The notes below the pieces were generated by a model that was not told the origin of the DNA, did no database searches, and saw only the letters and a list, made by a program, of their open reading frames with translations. The position numbers were made by a program, and so were the translations under genes. This document shows, one piece after another, positions 12,333 through 26,010 of a stretch of 64,000 bases of DNA (position 1 is the first letter of the stretch; each line of letters starts with the position of its first letter). The DNA is from Dokdonia sp. 4H-3-7-5 (GTDB taxonomy: Bacteria; Bacteroidota; Bacteroidia; Flavobacteriales; Flavobacteriaceae): contig NC_015496.1 of NCBI RefSeq assembly GCF_000212355.1, positions 2,244,501 to 2,308,500 on the forward strand. Direction: 5' to 3'.

Positions 12333-12695
12333 CTACTCTACAAACTCAATAATTTGAGCAGAAACAATCACTTTGTATTTGCTCACAAATAAGAAACCAG
12401 AAGTTTTTACTTCTACCACCTCATTTACTACGCTTCTTGCAGCTCCATCCATTCCTGCTCCTGAAAGCATTTTTGCCTTTGCTTCGGCTACGAGACCGTT
12501 TTTTGCTAGTCCGCCTATTCCAAAAATATAAGTAGCTTCTGCTTCTCCTTTTACCATTTTTACAACTTTGAAGTTCTTCTTTGTAAGAACAACTTCTGTA
12601 GTGTTCTGGTTGTAGTTTTTTGGTAAGCCAAAGTGTGAAGCACAACTTGTCATTAACAGAGCAACTAGTGCTAGTAAAAGGTACATTTTTTTCAT
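12333..12695 (-). CDS. Small lipoprotein (DUF6567-like)
   Basis: 120-aa lipoprotein. A signal peptide with lipobox LMTSC puts the modified Cys at residue 18. The mature part carries VVLTKKNFKVVKMVKGEAEATYIFGIGG, the pattern I associate with DUF6567 family lipoproteins of flavobacteria, then a helical part and two C-terminal strands ending in IIEFVE. Probably anchored at the periplasmic face of an envelope membrane. A possible -7 box TATGTTTG lies about 73 bp upstream. Function unknown. Confidence 0.82.
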   Translation of the reverse strand: MKKMYLLLALVALLMTSCASHFGLPKNYNQNTTEVVLTKKNFKVVKMVKGEAEATYIFGIGGLAKNGLVAEAKAKMLSGAGMDGAARSVVNEVVEVKTSGFLFVSKYKVIVSAQIIEFVE

Positions 12696-12767
12696 AAATA
12701 ATCTTGATCTTAGGTATTACCTACTCCTGTTTAGTGTCTTTTTTCGGCTTGTTCCGACAGTGTGTGG

Positions 12768-12775
12768 CAAACATA
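12768..12775 (-). promoter_or_regulatory. Possible -7 box of lipoprotein gene
   Basis: TATGTTTG on the minus strand fits the Bacteroidetes -7 consensus TANNTTTG. It predicts a leader of about 68 nt. No clear -33 TTTG at proper distance. Confidence 0.4.
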
Positions 12776-12880
12776 ATTTTATCAAAGCAGACTTTTTTAC
12801 GGGCAACCTCATTCTGGTAGATTTATTGGTTTTTTTAGAGAAGTATCTTTATTACTCTTTTGATATTTAACAAATTCTGT

Positions 12881-12950
12881 AAAAAAAAGGGTCTCCAGAT
12901 GGAAACCCTTTACAAACAATCCCGACTTAGAAACCCCTAGCAACTAAGCC
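12881..12950 (-). ncRNA. Candidate sRNA, unit 1
   Basis: Predicted ~70-nt RNA. It starts 5 nt after a -7 box with the stem GGCTTAG...CTAAGTC (12950-12924, one G-U pair that would be an A-C mismatch on the other strand). The 13-nt loop contains GGGG. A linker GGGATTGTTTGTA follows, then a terminator hairpin (12887-12910) and eight T. No start codon-led ORF. First of four tandem units; not an annotated family I can name with certainty. Confidence 0.75.
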
Positions 12951-12954
12951 GTGA

Positions 12955-12997
12955 CAAGTATACGAACTTTACAAAAAGATGGCGTACGGGAAACCGC
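12955..12997 (-). promoter_or_regulatory. Promoter of sRNA unit 1 with CCCGTA element
   Basis: Minus-strand element GCGGTTTCCCGTA (12997-12985), 22 bp, then TATACTTG (12962-12955). The element sits where the -33 box would be. The same layout is found for units 2-4, the response regulator and the histidine kinase. Confidence 0.75.
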
Positions 12998-13069
12998 ATT
13001 GAGTTCATTTTTATTTTTTCAGTCAATAGGTAGTCTAAAAAAAATATAAATATATTGGGTTTTGTTTTT

Positions 13070-13083
13070 CTTTCGCGAAAGCG
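13070..13083. repeat. Iterated palindrome, 14-bp copy
   Basis: CTTTCGCGAAAGCG between the promoter of sRNA unit 1 and the terminator of unit 2. Confidence 0.85.
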
Positions 13084-13107
13084 GACTTCTTAGGTGTGTA
13101 ATTAAAA

Positions 13108-13174
13108 CAAAAAGGCACCCAAGTGGGTGCCCAATGCAAATAATCTTGACTTAGAAACCCCTAGCAACTAAGCC
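13108..13174 (-). ncRNA. Candidate sRNA, unit 2
   Basis: Predicted ~67-nt RNA. Stem GGCTTAG/CTAAGTC and a loop identical to unit 1 (TTGCTAGGGGTTT). Linker AAGATTATTTGCATT, terminator hairpin GGGCACCC-ACTT-GGGTGCC (13114-13131) then TTTTTG. Starts with G 5 nt after its -7 box. Confidence 0.75.
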
Positions 13175-13178
13175 AAGA

Positions 13179-13219
13179 CAAGAATACATGATTTTTAAAC
13201 AAGTCTTTTACGGGTTTCC
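13179..13219 (-). promoter_or_regulatory. Promoter of sRNA unit 2 with CCCGTA element
   Basis: GGAAACCCGTA (13219-13209), 22 bp, TATTCTTG (13186-13179). Confidence 0.72.
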
Positions 13220-13248
13220 TTTATTTGGGCGTTTTTTTTCATTTTTAA

Positions 13249-13262
13249 CTTTTGCGAAAGCG
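13249..13262. repeat. Iterated palindrome, imperfect copy
   Basis: CTTTTGCGAAAGCG: one mismatch in the left arm. Lies between sRNA units 2 and 3. Confidence 0.65.
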
Positions 13263-13291
13263 AATCCGAAAAGGACACTAGTATTGTAAAT

Positions 13292-13359
13292 AAAAAAGGG
13301 TACCCAAGCGGATACCCTGTACAAACAAATTTGGCCTAGAAACCCCTAGCAACTAAGCC
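13292..13359 (-). ncRNA. Candidate sRNA, unit 3
   Basis: Predicted ~68-nt RNA. Stem GGCTTAG/CTAGGCC has a G-U pair that would be C-A on the other strand, supporting minus-strand transcription. Loop as in units 1 and 2. Terminator AGGGTATCC/GGGTACCCT (13297-13318) then TTTTTT. Confidence 0.75.
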
Positions 13360-13363
13360 ATGA

Positions 13364-13404
13364 CAAGGATACGTGATTTTTAGATAGGTGTTTTACGGAT
13401 TTCC
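13364..13404 (-). promoter_or_regulatory. Promoter of sRNA unit 3 with TCCGTA element
   Basis: GGAAATCCGTA (13404-13394), 22 bp, TATCCTTG (13371-13364). The only element with T for the first C of the core. Confidence 0.7.
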
Positions 13405-13474
13405 TTTATTTGAGCATATTATTTTATTTTTTAACATTTGATTTTTTATTAGTAATTGGTTATCAGCTTTTTAT

Positions 13475-13549
13475 AAAAAAATAGAGGATGCTCAAATGAA
13501 CATCCTCTACAAACAATCCTTGACTTAAAGCCCCCCATGATTTTAAGTC
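13475..13549 (-). ncRNA. Candidate sRNA, unit 4 (divergent)
   Basis: Predicted ~75-nt RNA. The stem has changed on both sides to GACTTAAA/TTTAAGTC (13549-13542, 13529-13522), a compensatory change. The loop is ATCATGGGGGGC, so the G-run is kept and longer. Linker AAGGATTGTTTGTA resembles unit 1. Terminator stem AGAGGATG/CATCCTCT (13508-13483) then seven T with one interruption. It lies between the response regulator gene and unit 3. Confidence 0.72.
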
Positions 13550-13553
13550 GTGG

Positions 13554-13598
13554 TAAGATTACAAGGTTTTATAATAATAACGTTACGGGAAACCGCAT
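13554..13598 (-). promoter_or_regulatory. Promoter of sRNA unit 4 with CCCGTA element
   Basis: ATGCGGTTTCCCGTA (13598-13584), 22 bp, TAATCTTA (13561-13554). Element is only 26 bp beyond the response regulator stop. Confidence 0.72.
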
Positions 13599-13624
13599 AT
13601 AGGTGATTTTTTTATGAAATACAT

Positions 13625-14290
13625 TTAAATAATACCTAAATCCTTTACTAATGCAACTAGATGAACAGCATTATTTGCCCTAAACTGAATTTTAAGTTTG
13701 CTCATTTTTTTCTCAATTGCACTTAGACTCGATGGAGACTCGTTAAGAGCCACGAGTTCTTTACTTATTTCATCATGAGAATAACCGTAAGAGAGTAATC
13801 GCATGAGGGTGATATCGTACTCGTCTATTTGTAAATCTGCATTGTCAGACATCGCCATAGCAACACGTGGAGAGATATAACGCTCTCCATTAAAAACGGT
13901 TGTGATTGCCTCTTTAAGATCGGAGATCCCTTCTCGTCCTTTGCATACAAAGGCATCTACACCCGTATCATTATACAGCTGTCTCACACGCTGGAAGCGA
14001 TCTTCTACAGTGTAAATGATAATCTTGAGCTCAGGATGTTCTTTCTTTAAAGCAGCTGCAAGATCATCTCCAGATGGAAATTGTTGCTTACGGTGGTCTG
14101 CTACAAATGAAAGATCAGAAATTATGAGGTCATAGGATTTACCGTCCATTTCTGCTTTTTTAATGAGTTTATATGCCTCATCACAATATTGAACTTGTTT
14201 TATGTAAGGTATTTGATAGGTAGTGAGAATGTGTTGTACACCTTCATTGATACTTCCTAAATCGTCTGCTATAATTACTTTTTGAAACAT
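13625..14290 (-). CDS. Response regulator, NarL/FixJ-like
   Basis: 221-aa response regulator. The receiver domain occupies ~1-130 with acidic pair Asp9-Asp10, phospho-acceptor Asp59 (DLIISDLSF), Thr near 104 (IIYTVED) and Lys near 117 (FVCKG). A C-terminal helix-turn-helix follows at ~155-217 (LLSYGYSHDEISKEL, then KLKIQFRANNAVHLV), like LuxR-type output domains but divergent. Its start overlaps the histidine kinase stop by 1 nt, so they are a pair. It also has its own promoter inside the kinase gene with the CCCGTA element. Immediately downstream lie four sRNA units with the same element, so this protein is the best candidate to bind it; that is inference. Confidence 0.9.
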   Translation of the reverse strand: MFQKVIIADDLGSINEGVQHILTTYQIPYIKQVQYCDEAYKLIKKAEMDGKSYDLIISDLSFVADHRKQQFPSGDDLAAALKKEHPELKIIIYTVEDRFQRVRQLYNDTGVDAFVCKGREGISDLKEAITTVFNGERYISPRVAMAMSDNADLQIDEYDITLMRLLSYGYSHDEISKELVALNESPSSLSAIEKKMSKLKIQFRANNAVHLVALVKDLGII

Positions 14291-15930
14291 TATATGTTGA
14301 TCTGTGCTTTAAAACCTTGGTTAGACTTACTTTCAAAAGTAATTGTTCCTTTTAAAGCTTCTATACGGGATTCCGCATTAAGCAAACCATTTTTAGAATT
14401 TATAGCACCGCCTATACCATTATCCTTATACAGAATATGCAGTTTCTTACCCTCTTTTGAAATCTCAACAAAGGCTATAGATGCTTTACTATGTTTATTA
14501 GTATTTGTAATTAACTCTTGTAAAATCCTATAAATAGTAGTCTTGTGTACTTTTGGAATTTGATTCCAATCTACCTTGTCGATACCTTTTGTGATAATGT
14601 TGAGAGATGGAGTTTTATAACTTGATAACAAATCACGTAAGGTTATGTGGAAAGATTCTTCTGTCTCAATAAAACTATTTTCTCTAGATATATCTCGAGT
14701 TCTACTATAAATATGCTCTAGATTATCTAGTAAGTGACTTTCATTGTATGTATTAGTTTGCACTTGTGAGATTAGTTTGTAAACATCATTTGCAACTTCG
14801 TCATGTAATCTCTTTGAGATTTTTGTTTCTGTCATATATACTTGTTCAAGGCGCTTTCTTTTATTGCGTAATGAAAGGAAGATAATAATACCTACCGTGA
14901 TTACCATAATAAATAAAGCTAAGAACTGGTAGCGTGTTTTATTAACCTTCTCCTGCTGTGCTATGAGCTCGCTTTCCTTTGCTTGCGTTTGGAACGTGGC
15001 GTATTCATACTTTTGAGCTGCATATTTATTTTCTTGAAGAGTTTGCACTTTGTATAAACTGTCTGATAGTTTCTTAAAAACATCGGCATTTGCTGTTGTG
15101 CCTATATCAATTGCCAGTCCGAGGGCTTCTAGTTTATATCTAGGATTATTGAGTTTATAAGCAATATCTTTTGCTAGACGAGCATGTTTTCTTGCTAGTG
15201 CTTCTTTGCCTTGCTGATGGTAGTAGTATGCTAGATGTCTATTTGTCGAAAAACTTCCCGTTATATTTCTGCTTTTTTCATTAATAGCTAGCGCTTCTAG
15301 CATCAATGCCTCACCCTTGAAATCACCTATTTGAGTAATACTATACCCATAGTTGTCATATATAGTGGTCAGTATGTTGTTATCTTCTATGCGGTCTGTA
15401 TCCTTCATAAAGGGACTTAAGACTTGAGCCGCTTTCTCATAAGATGAGCGCTCCATATAAATGGTGGCGATGTTATTTGAAATGGTAATACTATCTTCCT
15501 TTTTTGTAGCCATCGCCAGTGCTTGCTGGTAGTTTTCTAGAGCTAGTGGCAGATTGTTAAGACTTCTGTGCAACCTACCCAGTCTATTTCTGAGACGAAC
15601 GATGGTTTGTGTATCTGTTACAGGAATATCTTTTAAAAGGTTGATGGTGGCTTTTTCGCTCTCAAAAATGTCACCATTATTAAAATATCCTAAGGATATA
15701 AGCTCAGAGTAATAGTTATTGCGGGCTTTATCGTTTTTATGATTTTCAAGTTGGCGCTTGAAGTAATTAATACCTGCTGTTACATCCTCCGTGTTTTGTG
15801 GGTAGCCAATAACTCTATAGTAATGCTGAGTGCTATCTATGGGTGTCTGTCCAGAAAGTGGTGTTGTCCAAATACTACAAAGCGTGAGCACTAGAAATAC
15901 AAGTAGGGTTGTAATAGTAGATTTCTGCAT
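14290..15930 (-). CDS. TPR sensor histidine kinase
   Basis: 546-aa hybrid-free sensor kinase: signal peptide 1-28, TPR-like helical repeats ~30-300 in the periplasm, a coiled segment ~300-330, one membrane span ~335-355, then a HisKA_3-type dimerisation helix with His376 in LHDEVAND. The ATPase domain follows with N-box QELITNTNKHS (~471-481), DNGIGG (503-508) and NGLLN (514-518). This is the common Bacteroidetes TPR-NarL kinase type. The predicted transcription start from TATCTTTG falls on the ATG, so the mRNA may be leaderless. Signal sensed is unknown. Confidence 0.92.
   Translation of the reverse strand: MQKSTITTLLVFLVLTLCSIWTTPLSGQTPIDSTQHYYRVIGYPQNTEDVTAGINYFKRQLENHKNDKARNNYYSELISLGYFNNGDIFESEKATINLLKDIPVTDTQTIVRLRNRLGRLHRSLNNLPLALENYQQALAMATKKEDSITISNNIATIYMERSSYEKAAQVLSPFMKDTDRIEDNNILTTIYDNYGYSITQIGDFKGEALMLEALAINEKSRNITGSFSTNRHLAYYYHQQGKEALARKHARLAKDIAYKLNNPRYKLEALGLAIDIGTTANADVFKKLSDSLYKVQTLQENKYAAQKYEYATFQTQAKESELIAQQEKVNKTRYQFLALFIMVITVGIIIFLSLRNKRKRLEQVYMTETKISKRLHDEVANDVYKLISQVQTNTYNESHLLDNLEHIYSRTRDISRENSFIETEESFHITLRDLLSSYKTPSLNIITKGIDKVDWNQIPKVHKTTIYRILQELITNTNKHSKASIAFVEISKEGKKLHILYKDNGIGGAINSKNGLLNAESRIEALKGTITFESKSNQGFKAQINI
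14334..14376 (-). promoter_or_regulatory. Internal promoter for response regulator with CCCGTA element
   Basis: Inside the kinase coding sequence: GCGGAATCCCGTA (14376-14364), 22 bp, TACTTTTG (14341-14334), a full match to TANNTTTG. Predicted start ~39 nt before the regulator ATG. Confidence 0.7.
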
Positions 15931-16002: not shown

Positions 16003-16018
16003 CGCTTTCGCGAAAGCG
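16003..16018. repeat. Iterated palindrome copy, perfect
   Basis: Exact 16-mer; symmetry extends to TACGCTTTCGCGAAAGCGTA at 16001-16020. About 75 bp upstream of the kinase start. Confidence 0.95.
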
Positions 16019-19053: not shown

Positions 19054-19076
19054 ATTGAGTTTTGATACTCAATCAG

Positions 19077-19472
19077 TGGAGTCGGAGGGATTCGAACCCT
19101 CGTCCAAACAAGCAATATTACTGCTTTCTACGTGTGTAGTTTCTGTTTAAATTTTCGTGAGATTGCCGGTTAGAAACTACCAACGCACCCCTTATCTTCA
19201 ATTAGGTGTCTCTCTCGCATCAAAGCCCTACGAGGGATAGGTTTACTTTTACGAAGTCACTATATCGATTGCCGTAAACCAAGGCTCTCGAGTGACTTCC
19301 TGCTTGTCTACCTTGTAGACCGAGGCGTAATCTTACTATAATTCAGATTATGCAGCTAGGGCGTAGTTGTTCTCGCCGTTTAAAAAGATGAAAAATGAGA
19401 TTTACGAGCTGTTTTCCAGCGCTCGACACGCTTACAATACTATTGGTCTCGCTGTCAAAACCAGTCGACCCC
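19077..19472 (-). ncRNA. ssrA: Transfer-messenger RNA (tmRNA)
   Basis: 396-nt tmRNA, which rescues stalled ribosomes and tags the nascent peptide. The 5' end GGGGTCGACTGGTTTTGACA (from 19472) pairs with the 3' end CGACTCC-A; CCA is encoded at 19079-19077. The T-arm GAGGGTTCGAATCCCTC is intact next to it. The tag frame is at 19377-19348: GGC GAG AAC AAC TAC GCC CTA GCT GCA TAA, peptide GENNYALAA, typical of Bacteroidetes. A -7 box TATATTTG at 19521-19514 predicts a ~37-nt 5' leader that contains a copy of the iterated palindrome. Confidence 0.97.
19348..19377 (-). other. tmRNA tag reading frame (GENNYALAA)
   Basis: Nine sense codons and TAA; the resume codon is GGC (Gly). The ALAA end is the usual degradation signal. 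Confidence 0.93.
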
Positions 19473-19492: not shown

Positions 19493-19507
19493 GCTTTCGC
19501 GAAAGCG
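19493..19507. repeat. Iterated palindrome copy, 15 of 16
   Basis: GCTTTCGCGAAAGCG in the predicted 5' leader of pre-tmRNA, beginning just after the predicted start. Confidence 0.93.
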
Positions 19508-25071: not shown

Positions 25072-26010
25072 ATGAATTCATTACTTGTTGCAGATACTGT
25101 CTCAAAGAAGTTTGGTGACTTTACCGCACTTAATAACGTCTCTATTGCTGTTCCAGAAGGAAGTATTTTTGGGCTACTAGGCCCTAATGGCGCAGGAAAG
25201 ACTACACTCATTCGTATTATCAACCAGATTACTATGCCAGATACAGGTAGTGTAACGCTGGGAGGTGAGCCATTACAACAGCACCATATACGTGATATAG
25301 GCTATATGCCAGAAGAGCGTGGCTTATACAAATCTATGAAAGTTGGGGAGCAGGTACTTTACCTCGCTCAACTTAAAGGCTTGTCTAAAGCAGATGCAAA
25401 AAAACGAGCCAAACACTGGTTTGAAAAGCTAGAAATAGGAGACTGGTGGGATAAAAAAATTCAAGAACTTTCTAAAGGTCAGGCGCAGAAAATCCAATTT
25501 GTGGTGACCGTAATGCACCAGCCCAAGTTGCTTATTTTTGATGAACCCTTCAGTGGATTTGACCCTATAAATGCAAATCTTATTAAAGATGAGATTTTGC
25601 AATTACGTAATGAGGGTGCTACGGTTATCTTCAGTACGCACCGTATGGAATCTGTAGAGGAGCTTTGTGATCATATAGCACTTATCAATAAATCTAATAA
25701 AATTCTTGATGGCGAGGTAAACAGTATCAAGAGGGCATACCAAAACAATACATTTGATGTAGGAGTTCAAGTTGTAGATGAGACCGCTTTCGCGAAAGCA
25801 GAACAAGAACTCAAAGCTGCTTTTAAAGTAACTCCAGCACATTTTAAAAGTTTAGGTAATGAACGCAAACTTCGTGTAGAAATGGGCGATAAGTCTACAC
25901 CAAACGAATTGCTTACAACCTTAAAAAATCATGGACAAGTCACCCATTTTATGGAAGTGATACCAAGTGTAAACGATATCTTCATTCAAACAGTTAGCCA
26001 AAACAAATGA
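25072..26010 (+). CDS. ABC transporter ATPase, NatA-like
   Basis: 312-aa ATPase of an ABC-2 exporter. Walker A GPNGAGKT (~38-45), a Q-loop replaced by YMPEERGLY as in NatA-type proteins, signature LSKGQAQK (~136-143), Walker B LLIFDEPFSGFDP (~157-169), H-switch STHRME. C-terminal ~80 residues form the usual accessory domain. The gene overlaps the permease gene by 4 nt (ATGA). A 15-bp palindrome copy at 25785 encodes AFAKA in the C-terminal domain. Substrate unknown; NatAB homologues export Na+ or act in stress. Confidence 0.93.
   Translation: MNSLLVADTVSKKFGDFTALNNVSIAVPEGSIFGLLGPNGAGKTTLIRIINQITMPDTGSVTLGGEPLQQHHIRDIGYMPEERGLYKSMKVGEQVLYLAQLKGLSKADAKKRAKHWFEKLEIGDWWDKKIQELSKGQAQKIQFVVTVMHQPKLLIFDEPFSGFDPINANLIKDEILQLRNEGATVIFSTHRMESVEELCDHIALINKSNKILDGEVNSIKRAYQNNTFDVGVQVVDETAFAKAEQELKAAFKVTPAHFKSLGNERKLRVEMGDKSTPNELLTTLKNHGQVTHFMEVIPSVNDIFIQTVSQNK
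25785..25799. repeat. Iterated palindrome copy, 15 of 16, coding
   Basis: CGCTTTCGCGAAAGC, read T-AFAKA-E. Confidence 0.93.

Follow-up and report, generated by a model that had tools for sequence, protein, structure and literature searches.

The window analysed here is a 64-kb stretch of the genome of Dokdonia sp. 4H-3-7-5, a single contig of 3.39 Mb. On its minus strand, four tandem units lie between a two-component system (TCS) and a gene for a lipoprotein-like protein. We consider it likely, judging from the sequences compared, that these units specify TCS-activated, trans-acting non-coding sRNAs with G-rich loops, which have been amplified in Dokdonia and wired to two systems. The initial annotation had proposed multicopy sRNAs under the neighbouring TCS, and this is the best reading of units that share an operator at a fixed distance, conserved in the family. 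The link to the adjacent system stands, with the refinement that units 2 and 3 carry the operator class of a paralogous system. The RNAs look like a new class of signal-controlled regulatory RNA.

Results

Four structured units next to a two-component system

Read along the minus strand, the locus consists of a TPR histidine kinase gene, the gene of response regulator RR-A, the four sRNA units and a DUF6567 lipoprotein-like gene, in that order. The kinase, which is the sensor of TCS-A, is an ORF at 14290..15930 (-) with Pfam matches to TPR_12 and to HATPase_c, the latter slightly below the Pfam cut-off. RR-A (13625..14290, -; 221 aa) matches Response_reg and has orthologues in relatives, at 92-95% identity in the Dokdonia records. 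Pfam sees only its receiver domain and gave no match to a helix-turn-helix in the C-terminus, where by inspection of the sequence we read a putative helix-turn-helix of the LuxR type. The DUF6567 gene (12333..12695, -; PF20205, E 2e-40) is a probable protein output of the same regulator as the sRNA units.

A repeat search confirmed four direct copies on the minus strand, starting at 12881, 13105, 13290 and 13478 and spaced by 224, 185 and 188 nt. Each has the parts that had been listed for it, namely promoter, GGGG-loop hairpin, TTTG linker and terminator. With 5' ends that are estimates in all four cases, unit 1 covers 13475..13551 (stem GACTTAAA/TTTAAGTC, loop ATCATGGGGGGC, terminator 13510-13481), unit 2 covers 13290..13362 (stem GGCTTAG/CTAGGCC, loop TTGCTAGGGGTTT, terminator 13318-13297), unit 3 covers 13106..13177 (terminator 13132-13113) and unit 4 covers 12882..12953 (terminator 12911-12886), all on the minus strand. 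The initial annotation had this structure right and missed the operators; with these, the feature extends as far upstream as 13597, takes in 12798-12808 and reaches the kinase gene (14364-14374).

Five terminator-like sites were found versus 0.8 expected in shuffles; four of them are the unit ends and the fifth is an operator. For every unit, none of 200 dinucleotide shuffles folds as well (z -3.5 to -5.6), and the minus strand folds at a dG of -27.2 to -31.0, the plus strand being weaker (-16.5 to -19.9). Within the window genome, the 5' arm and loop of units 2-4 are invariant and the 3' arm alone varies, with G-U pairs preserving the stem, which would fit the 5' arm and loop being the functional end. 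At homologous loci of the genus, 95.8% of alignment cells pair, versus 27.8-55.5% when the partners are slid by 1-3 columns, in an alignment that was fitted to the structure and so favours the pairing figure. Both stems covary: 14 of the 17 pairs show changes on both sides among 21 distinct sequences (12 loci), a count that is also inflated by relatedness. A free alifold run on 12 sequences recovered the terminator and gave a different 5' pairing, which we presume is due to the MAFFT alignment of unit 1. The loop GGGG is present in all 25 Dokdonia-type sequences.

An operator at a fixed distance from the -7 element

Each unit is preceded by an operator, GG-N4-CCGTA, exactly 22 nt before a -7 element. 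Scanning the array for E. coli-type promoters found none; the promoters of the units are, we take it, of the Bacteroidota type, TAnnYTTR. Units 1 and 4 have the class I operator TGCGGTTTCCCGTA, at 13584..13597 (-7 element TAATCTTA at 13561-13554) and at 12985..12998 (-7 element TATACTTG at 12962-12955), respectively. Units 2 and 3 have class II operators, AATAAAGGAAATCCGTA at 13394..13410 (-7 element TATCCTTG at 13371-13364) and AATAAAGGAAACCCGTA at 13209..13225 (-7 element TATTCTTG at 13186-13179). A further operator, GGTTGCCCGTA (12798..12808), stands 22 nt before the -7 element TATGTTTG (12775-12768) of the DUF6567 gene, and a class I operator, GGAATCCCGTA (14364..14374), falls within the 3' end of the kinase gene, ahead of RR-A, with the -7 element TACTTTTG (14341-14334) again at 22 nt. 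All of these are on the minus strand. The window contains exactly six GG-N4-CCGTA modules at a spacing of 20-24, all in the array locus, and a laxer module pattern adds a single one, at 25716 on the plus strand.

The spacing is also kept among relatives, whose regulator loci were gathered by regulator similarity. Eighty-eight such loci from Flavobacteriaceae, including three that are repeat records of a genome, have 188 unique boxes on the regulator strand. These gave 153 pairings with TA...TTG at 22 nt (65 upstream of the regulator, 88 downstream) versus 4 for all other spacings from 5 to 44. The majority consensus of 92 diverse promoters is TTACGG-N4-CCGTAAGG followed by TAnnTTTG 22 nt past CCGTA; a minority extend to a 20-bp repeat, CCTTACGG-N4-CCGTAAGG. 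The unit 4 operator of genome G002 departs from this, reading CCCGCA.

When the 3.39-Mb genome was searched with a promoter model made from the 92 promoters, six of the eight matches at E<0.01 were the modules of this 1.6-kb stretch, in a scan that scored 150 of 4755 first-look candidates and was not blind, since four own-genome promoters and relatives of others are inside the model. The operator alone is not over-represented genome-wide (120 sites versus 139 for a control pattern). Among 40 of these 120 sites, picked outside the array locus by their AT-rich centre, three had the 22-nt/-7 arrangement (L169, L174 and L185, the last on the opposite strand).

As a separate observation, T-rich sequence comes after the inverted repeat of the operator (such as CCTTACGG-N4-CCGTAAGG) at L010:2456-2503, L096:5640-5687, L101:2468-2515 and L014:1098 (minus strand). 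Such a T-flanked repeat, seen in several genera, could double as the intrinsic terminator of the upstream gene.

An operator within the kinase gene

The module inside the kinase gene is presumed to be the promoter of RR-A. Of 85 A-type loci, 82 have a kinase-internal operator, as do all 13 loci that were fetched later; it is missing from all 8 loci of the paralogous system TCS-B. Neighbouring species are not independent in these counts. L018, a locus with a lower-scoring regulator outside both sets, has no such operator. In 92 in-frame cases (three further sites with an in-frame stop were set aside), the codon through the operator GG is ACG, GCG, GTG or ATG, so that the amino acid varies and the final G is fixed; G ends 1030 of 8318 comparable upstream codons in the background. 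As this G is part of the operator search pattern, the informative figure is the presence of the site in 82 of 85 loci. The arginine codon at the site is CGT in 92 of 95 cases versus 168 of 1250 in the background. We infer that RR-A may be positively autoregulated.

Spread of regulator and sRNA in the family

Of 397 Flavobacteriaceae genomes, 144 have members of the regulator family (E<=1e-40, paralogues included). Within the genus, a model built from units 2-4 (R1) retrieved 25 sequences at E<=1e-4, from 12 loci of 8 genomes. There are four-unit arrays in G000, G008 and G012 and three-unit arrays in G007 and G002; G003, G016 and a second G002 locus have one unit after a regulator of 70-72% identity, with one orphan unit elsewhere, and D. 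sinensis (G011) has one unit. The ten other genomes among the 18 of the genus search gave weak R1 matches (best E 0.003) or none. Of 249 family genomes searched with stricter filters, 37 had an R1 match at E<=0.01, own genome included; outside the own genome the best E was 2.9e-4, with one or two matches per genome. We regard the R1 matches in the wider family as mostly chance and left them uncounted.

Relatives in other genera were located by synteny with the regulator rather than by R1. At least one module lies downstream of the regulator in 68 of 85 loci, the operator often being 10-35 nt past the last regulator codon, and 17 loci have no downstream module. Sixty of the 114 unique downstream modules reach a terminator hairpin (dG -9 or lower) within 95 nt, doubtful cases among them being L118+951, which is inside an open frame, and L107 and L108, in which the following operator was taken for the hairpin; small protein genes come after many of the other modules. 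A terminator-ended short RNA is thus counted in at least 48 of the 85 loci, 42 of which have one <=60 nt from the last regulator codon, and 37 loci were not so counted; 48 is a lower bound, as the L007 unit is identical to that of L006 and the terminator of L008 (D. sinensis) fails the hairpin criterion. Outside the array-bearing Dokdonia genomes, the copy found after the regulator gene is usually a single one. Between distant genera, the sRNA bodies align poorly. GGG precedes the terminator in 55 of the 60 family RNAs, and the words GCTATTAA (13 loci) and TTAGGGA (14 loci), seen outside Dokdonia, recur.

The 85-locus counts leave out L011-L027 and L030, whose regulators score lower and of which 7 of 18 have a module (L011, L013-L017 and L019); L018, from G018, has none. 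They also leave out L090, L091 and L095, which are second records of genomes already in the counts, L099 (another phylum) and G390 (contig edge), as well as all but 13 of the lower-ranked regulator matches, G018, G274 and G242 having been passed over in rank.

In G008, a module at L226:1503 (plus) leads into an apparent terminator-ended RNA with a TTCACAA/TTGTGAA stem and without GGG. This is perhaps a second sRNA type of the regulon.

Two operator classes and a paralogous system

The operators of the array are of two types. Class I (TGCGG/TGAGG-type), to which the operators of units 1 and 4, of the lipoprotein gene and inside the kinase gene belong, is loose, with a mean difference of 7.1 of 23 positions among its members. 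Class II (units 2 and 3) reads AATAAAGGAAA[TC]CCGTA and has a mean difference of 1.4 of 23. Across the same 23 positions, class I differs from class II by 10.6 and from the TCS-B sites by 12.0, and class II differs from the TCS-B sites by 2.6. The distances of the TCS-B and orphan sites are lowered by the way these were selected, with a pattern that includes GGAAAT.

The regulator of TCS-B, RR-B, is a paralogue with 41% identity (G000:C1:976595-977257). Downstream of it, a class II site stands 22 nt before a -7 element, ahead of a longer RNA; upstream of it, a long open frame after a small lipoprotein gene is presumably its kinase. With one mismatch allowed, AATAAAGGAAATNCGTA has 3-9 sites in each of the seven genomes (7/7) with a Dokdonia-type TCS-B. 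The other two of the nine genus genomes have no such site: D. sinensis, in which no RR-B was found, and G004, which has a different site and a more distant RR-B (63% to RR-B). A reversed control gave no sites in any of the 9 genomes. Among 30 class II sites inspected, 19 have TA...TT[AG] at 22 nt and 11 do not; the latter include sites before small secreted-protein genes and before the small lipoprotein gene upstream of RR-B. We infer that the array may be wired to both two-component systems, and it is probably not controlled by the adjacent system alone.

Four class II sites (L328, L336, L338 and L345) have TACATTGC or TATATTTC at 22 nt. A leader common to all four, TGATTAATCATCTAGTATRCTAG, follows them, with a small secreted-protein-like frame downstream of three.

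The RNA next to RR-B is roughly 160 nt long (L246:996-1200, about G000:C1:977290-977500) and has equivalents in L030, L247, L248, L249, L250, L252 and L012, with conserved C-runs; its ends were set by script at T-runs, three of which cut the terminator short. The C-run before the terminator is GGUCCCCCAACC or UUUCCCCCAACUG, and UUCCCCUACGU in G004. Four of the eight genomes (G016, G002, G003 and G004) have a second C-run, at the exposed 5' end. Rfam gave nothing above gathering for this RNA in six of the eight loci.

A conversation between TCS-A and TCS-B through complementary sRNAs can be imagined, and we think it improbable. TCS-A would make units 1 and 4, and TCS-B would drive units 2 and 3 plus its own C-rich RNA, which would pair with the G loops through GGUCCCCCAACC, ACUCCCCC and GUCCCCUACGG and serve as a sponge or fine-tuner. 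Only unit 1, and only in some genomes, pairs clearly better than composition shuffles. For this unit, a duplex as good was formed by 0, 1, 4 and 8 of 300 shuffles in G012, G000, G007 and G016, respectively, and by 21/300 and 39/300 composition shuffles in two other genomes. The corresponding figures are 7-57/300 for units 2-4, and 101/300 and 164/300 for the orphan units. Controls with the loop reversed often score no worse than the true G loops. The proposal is further weakened by D. sinensis, which has a G-loop RNA and no RR-B that we could find, and by G004, which has RR-B yet no convincing R1 match (best E 0.013).

Searches for targets

The 9-mer complementary to the loop of units 2-4 occurs at nine places outside the array, none of them at a correct-strand start codon, and a search for start-codon targets with AACCCCTAG found none. 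The complement of unit 1, CCCCCATG, occurs at 26 places in four genomes, with no start codon common between genomes. A 59-aa frame with this sequence in G007 (L318) could be a single target case. Pairing with the regulator, kinase-end and next-gene regions of the same loci was like that of shuffles (mean z -0.24 to 0.25).

Comparison with known RNAs

Across the 64-kb window, tmRNA alone (19074-19472, -; RF00023) passes gathering in Rfam, and when the array and ten other loci were scanned by E-value, all rows stayed below gathering. Two families that the initial annotation had brought up were looked for among these results: LhrC is not one of the 9 Rfam matches at E up to 5 for 12650-13650, and Flavo-1 has no row in the gathering scan of the window or in the array scan at E<=5. 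Literature searches over open-licence PMC papers, a collection outside which most subscription papers fall, turned up nothing recognised as these RNAs or their operator.

According to the part of PMC4132741 available to us, LhrC1-5 of Listeria monocytogenes are multicopy sRNAs under LisRK. The units described here are likewise multicopy and, by operator sequence, linked to a TCS, whereas LhrC has CU-rich UCCC motifs and is G-poor and the present units have G-rich 5' loops. The csRNAs of Streptococcus, as excerpted from PMC3091779, are homologous short sRNAs each with its own CiaR-activated promoter, two stem-loops being present in 32 of 61. Several homologous short sRNAs, each behind its own promoter, are also what we find, but the CiaR site described there is a direct repeat (NTTAAG-N5-TTTAAG) and the operator here is an inverted one (TTACGG-N4-CCGTAAGG); moreover, our units conserve a G-rich loop and belong to a different phylum. 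With regard to the unpaired anti-SD plus anti-start-codon sequence of the csRNAs, unit 1 has CAU before the G-run and the loops of units 2-4 are without CAU. For the functional kind "multicopy sRNAs controlled by a TCS", both homologous genes and regulator-linked operators are found at the level of sequence. On these partial accounts, the units resemble CiaRH csRNAs and LisRK LhrC by kind and are neither by membership.

Within the phylum, the nearest multicopy family in the literature that we found is FopS (GibS) of Bacteroides thetaiotaomicron, with 14 members, a shared 41-nt motif and binding by RbpB (PMC11697453, in extract). It too is a paralogous multicopy sRNA family; the extract mentions no TCS control or regulator adjacency, and the comparison is with the description alone. 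Rfp18 of Flavobacterium psychrophilum, an sRNA from the same family of bacteria, is predicted in the portion of PMC9723704 at hand to pair with metalloprotease mRNAs through its third stem-loop. The units here have two stem-loops each and are set apart from Rfp18 by description only.

Discussion

The following mechanism would account for the array. On receipt of a signal, the response regulator would bind the inverted-repeat operator, which would stand in for the -33 element of each promoter; the geometry would place it at about -44 to -34, like a class II activator, and the regulator would activate rather than repress. RR-A would activate the lipoprotein gene and, from the promoter within the kinase gene, its own gene, giving positive feedback. 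The units would be transcribed into short (about 70 nt), terminator-ended, non-coding RNAs that accumulate and act in trans via the exposed G-rich loop, which would most likely pair with C-rich RNA and less likely bind a protein. A single ancestral copy is presumed to have been multiplied in Dokdonia, and, as units 2 and 3 carry the operator of the paralogous system, two signals would feed one RNA pool. Several results speak against this account: the negative target searches, the 17 of 85 loci lacking a downstream module and the 37 not counted for a terminator-ended RNA, the absence of genome-wide enrichment of the operator by itself, the 11 of 30 class II sites without TA...TT[AG] at 22 nt, the looseness of class I and the CCCGCA operator in G002.

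Several other readings have to be weighed against this one. Control of the whole array by the adjacent system, with the operator classes representing drift of one site type, is possible and in our judgment rather unlikely. The class II operators of units 2 and 3 do fit GG-N4-CCGTA with the 22-nt spacing, and class I is itself heterogeneous; but class II sites differ by 1.4 of 23 positions internally and by 10.6 from class I, they are almost identical to the TCS-B sites, and no class II site is found in D. sinensis, where RR-B was also not found. A different role for the RNAs would be that of decoys, whose GGGG (or AGGGAG) loop titrates an RNA-binding translational regulator, with copy number setting the titration. 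RNAs of the CsrB/RsmY type titrate CsrA in this manner. The GGGG kept in all 25 Dokdonia-type loops while the stems covary, the GGG in 55 of 60 family members, the several copies in Dokdonia and the negative search for mRNA targets would suit a decoy. However, most loci with such an RNA have a single copy, we know of no use of CsrA in Bacteroidota, and an invariant 5' arm plus loop in units 2-4, with only the 3' arm varying, fits a longer pairing seed. We hold the decoy role to be doubtful.

That the units are only operators and terminators, which insulate the regulator operon from the lipoprotein gene and yield transcripts as by-products, is quite unlikely. A unit terminator could also end the regulator transcript, and the inverted repeat of the operator in L010, L096 and L101 runs into T-rich sequence. 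But termination needs neither a conserved GGGG loop nor a covarying 5' hairpin, and there are orphan units with their own operator away from the operon (L065, L066 and L087). It is hardly credible that the units encode very short peptides. As the initial annotation had observed, no ORF common to the units is seen. Of the 60 units in the wider family, 15 hold a complete ORF of at least 8 codons, and by eye a TTG frame begins in the loop of units 2-4; yet this frame continues through the terminator, no common frame or stop is apparent, and the sequence changes are such as to preserve base pairs. The reading as trans-acting sRNAs wired to two systems is the one that we retain.

Regulatory RNA in Flavobacteriaceae seems little known; our searches turned up one experimental study, the source of the Rfp18 description (PMC9723704). 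This locus offers an operator of rigid geometry, a likely activator with a widespread sRNA beside it, and an operator that has apparently been selected within the coding sequence of a kinase. The array may be a point of integration for two paralogous signalling systems, and with the operator the regulons of this regulator subfamily (144 of 397 sampled genomes) can be read from sequence. All of the proposals are testable in a marine bacterium.

Two minor features of the locus are worth recording. The palindrome CTTTCGCGAAAG occurs at 17 sites in the 64-kb window versus 0.01 expected (for example at 13070-13081, 16005-16016 and 19494-19505), and one copy lies between sRNA units 3 and 4. In a pattern comparison of three loci (12790-12700 in the window, L002 and L103), the leader of the DUF6567 gene (12790-12700, -; GTCGGAACAAGCCGAAAAAAGACACTAAACAGGAGTAGGT) resembles the leader of a gene in another genus (L103), and a weaker likeness was judged by eye in L104; the DUF6567 leader is possibly a structured cis element.
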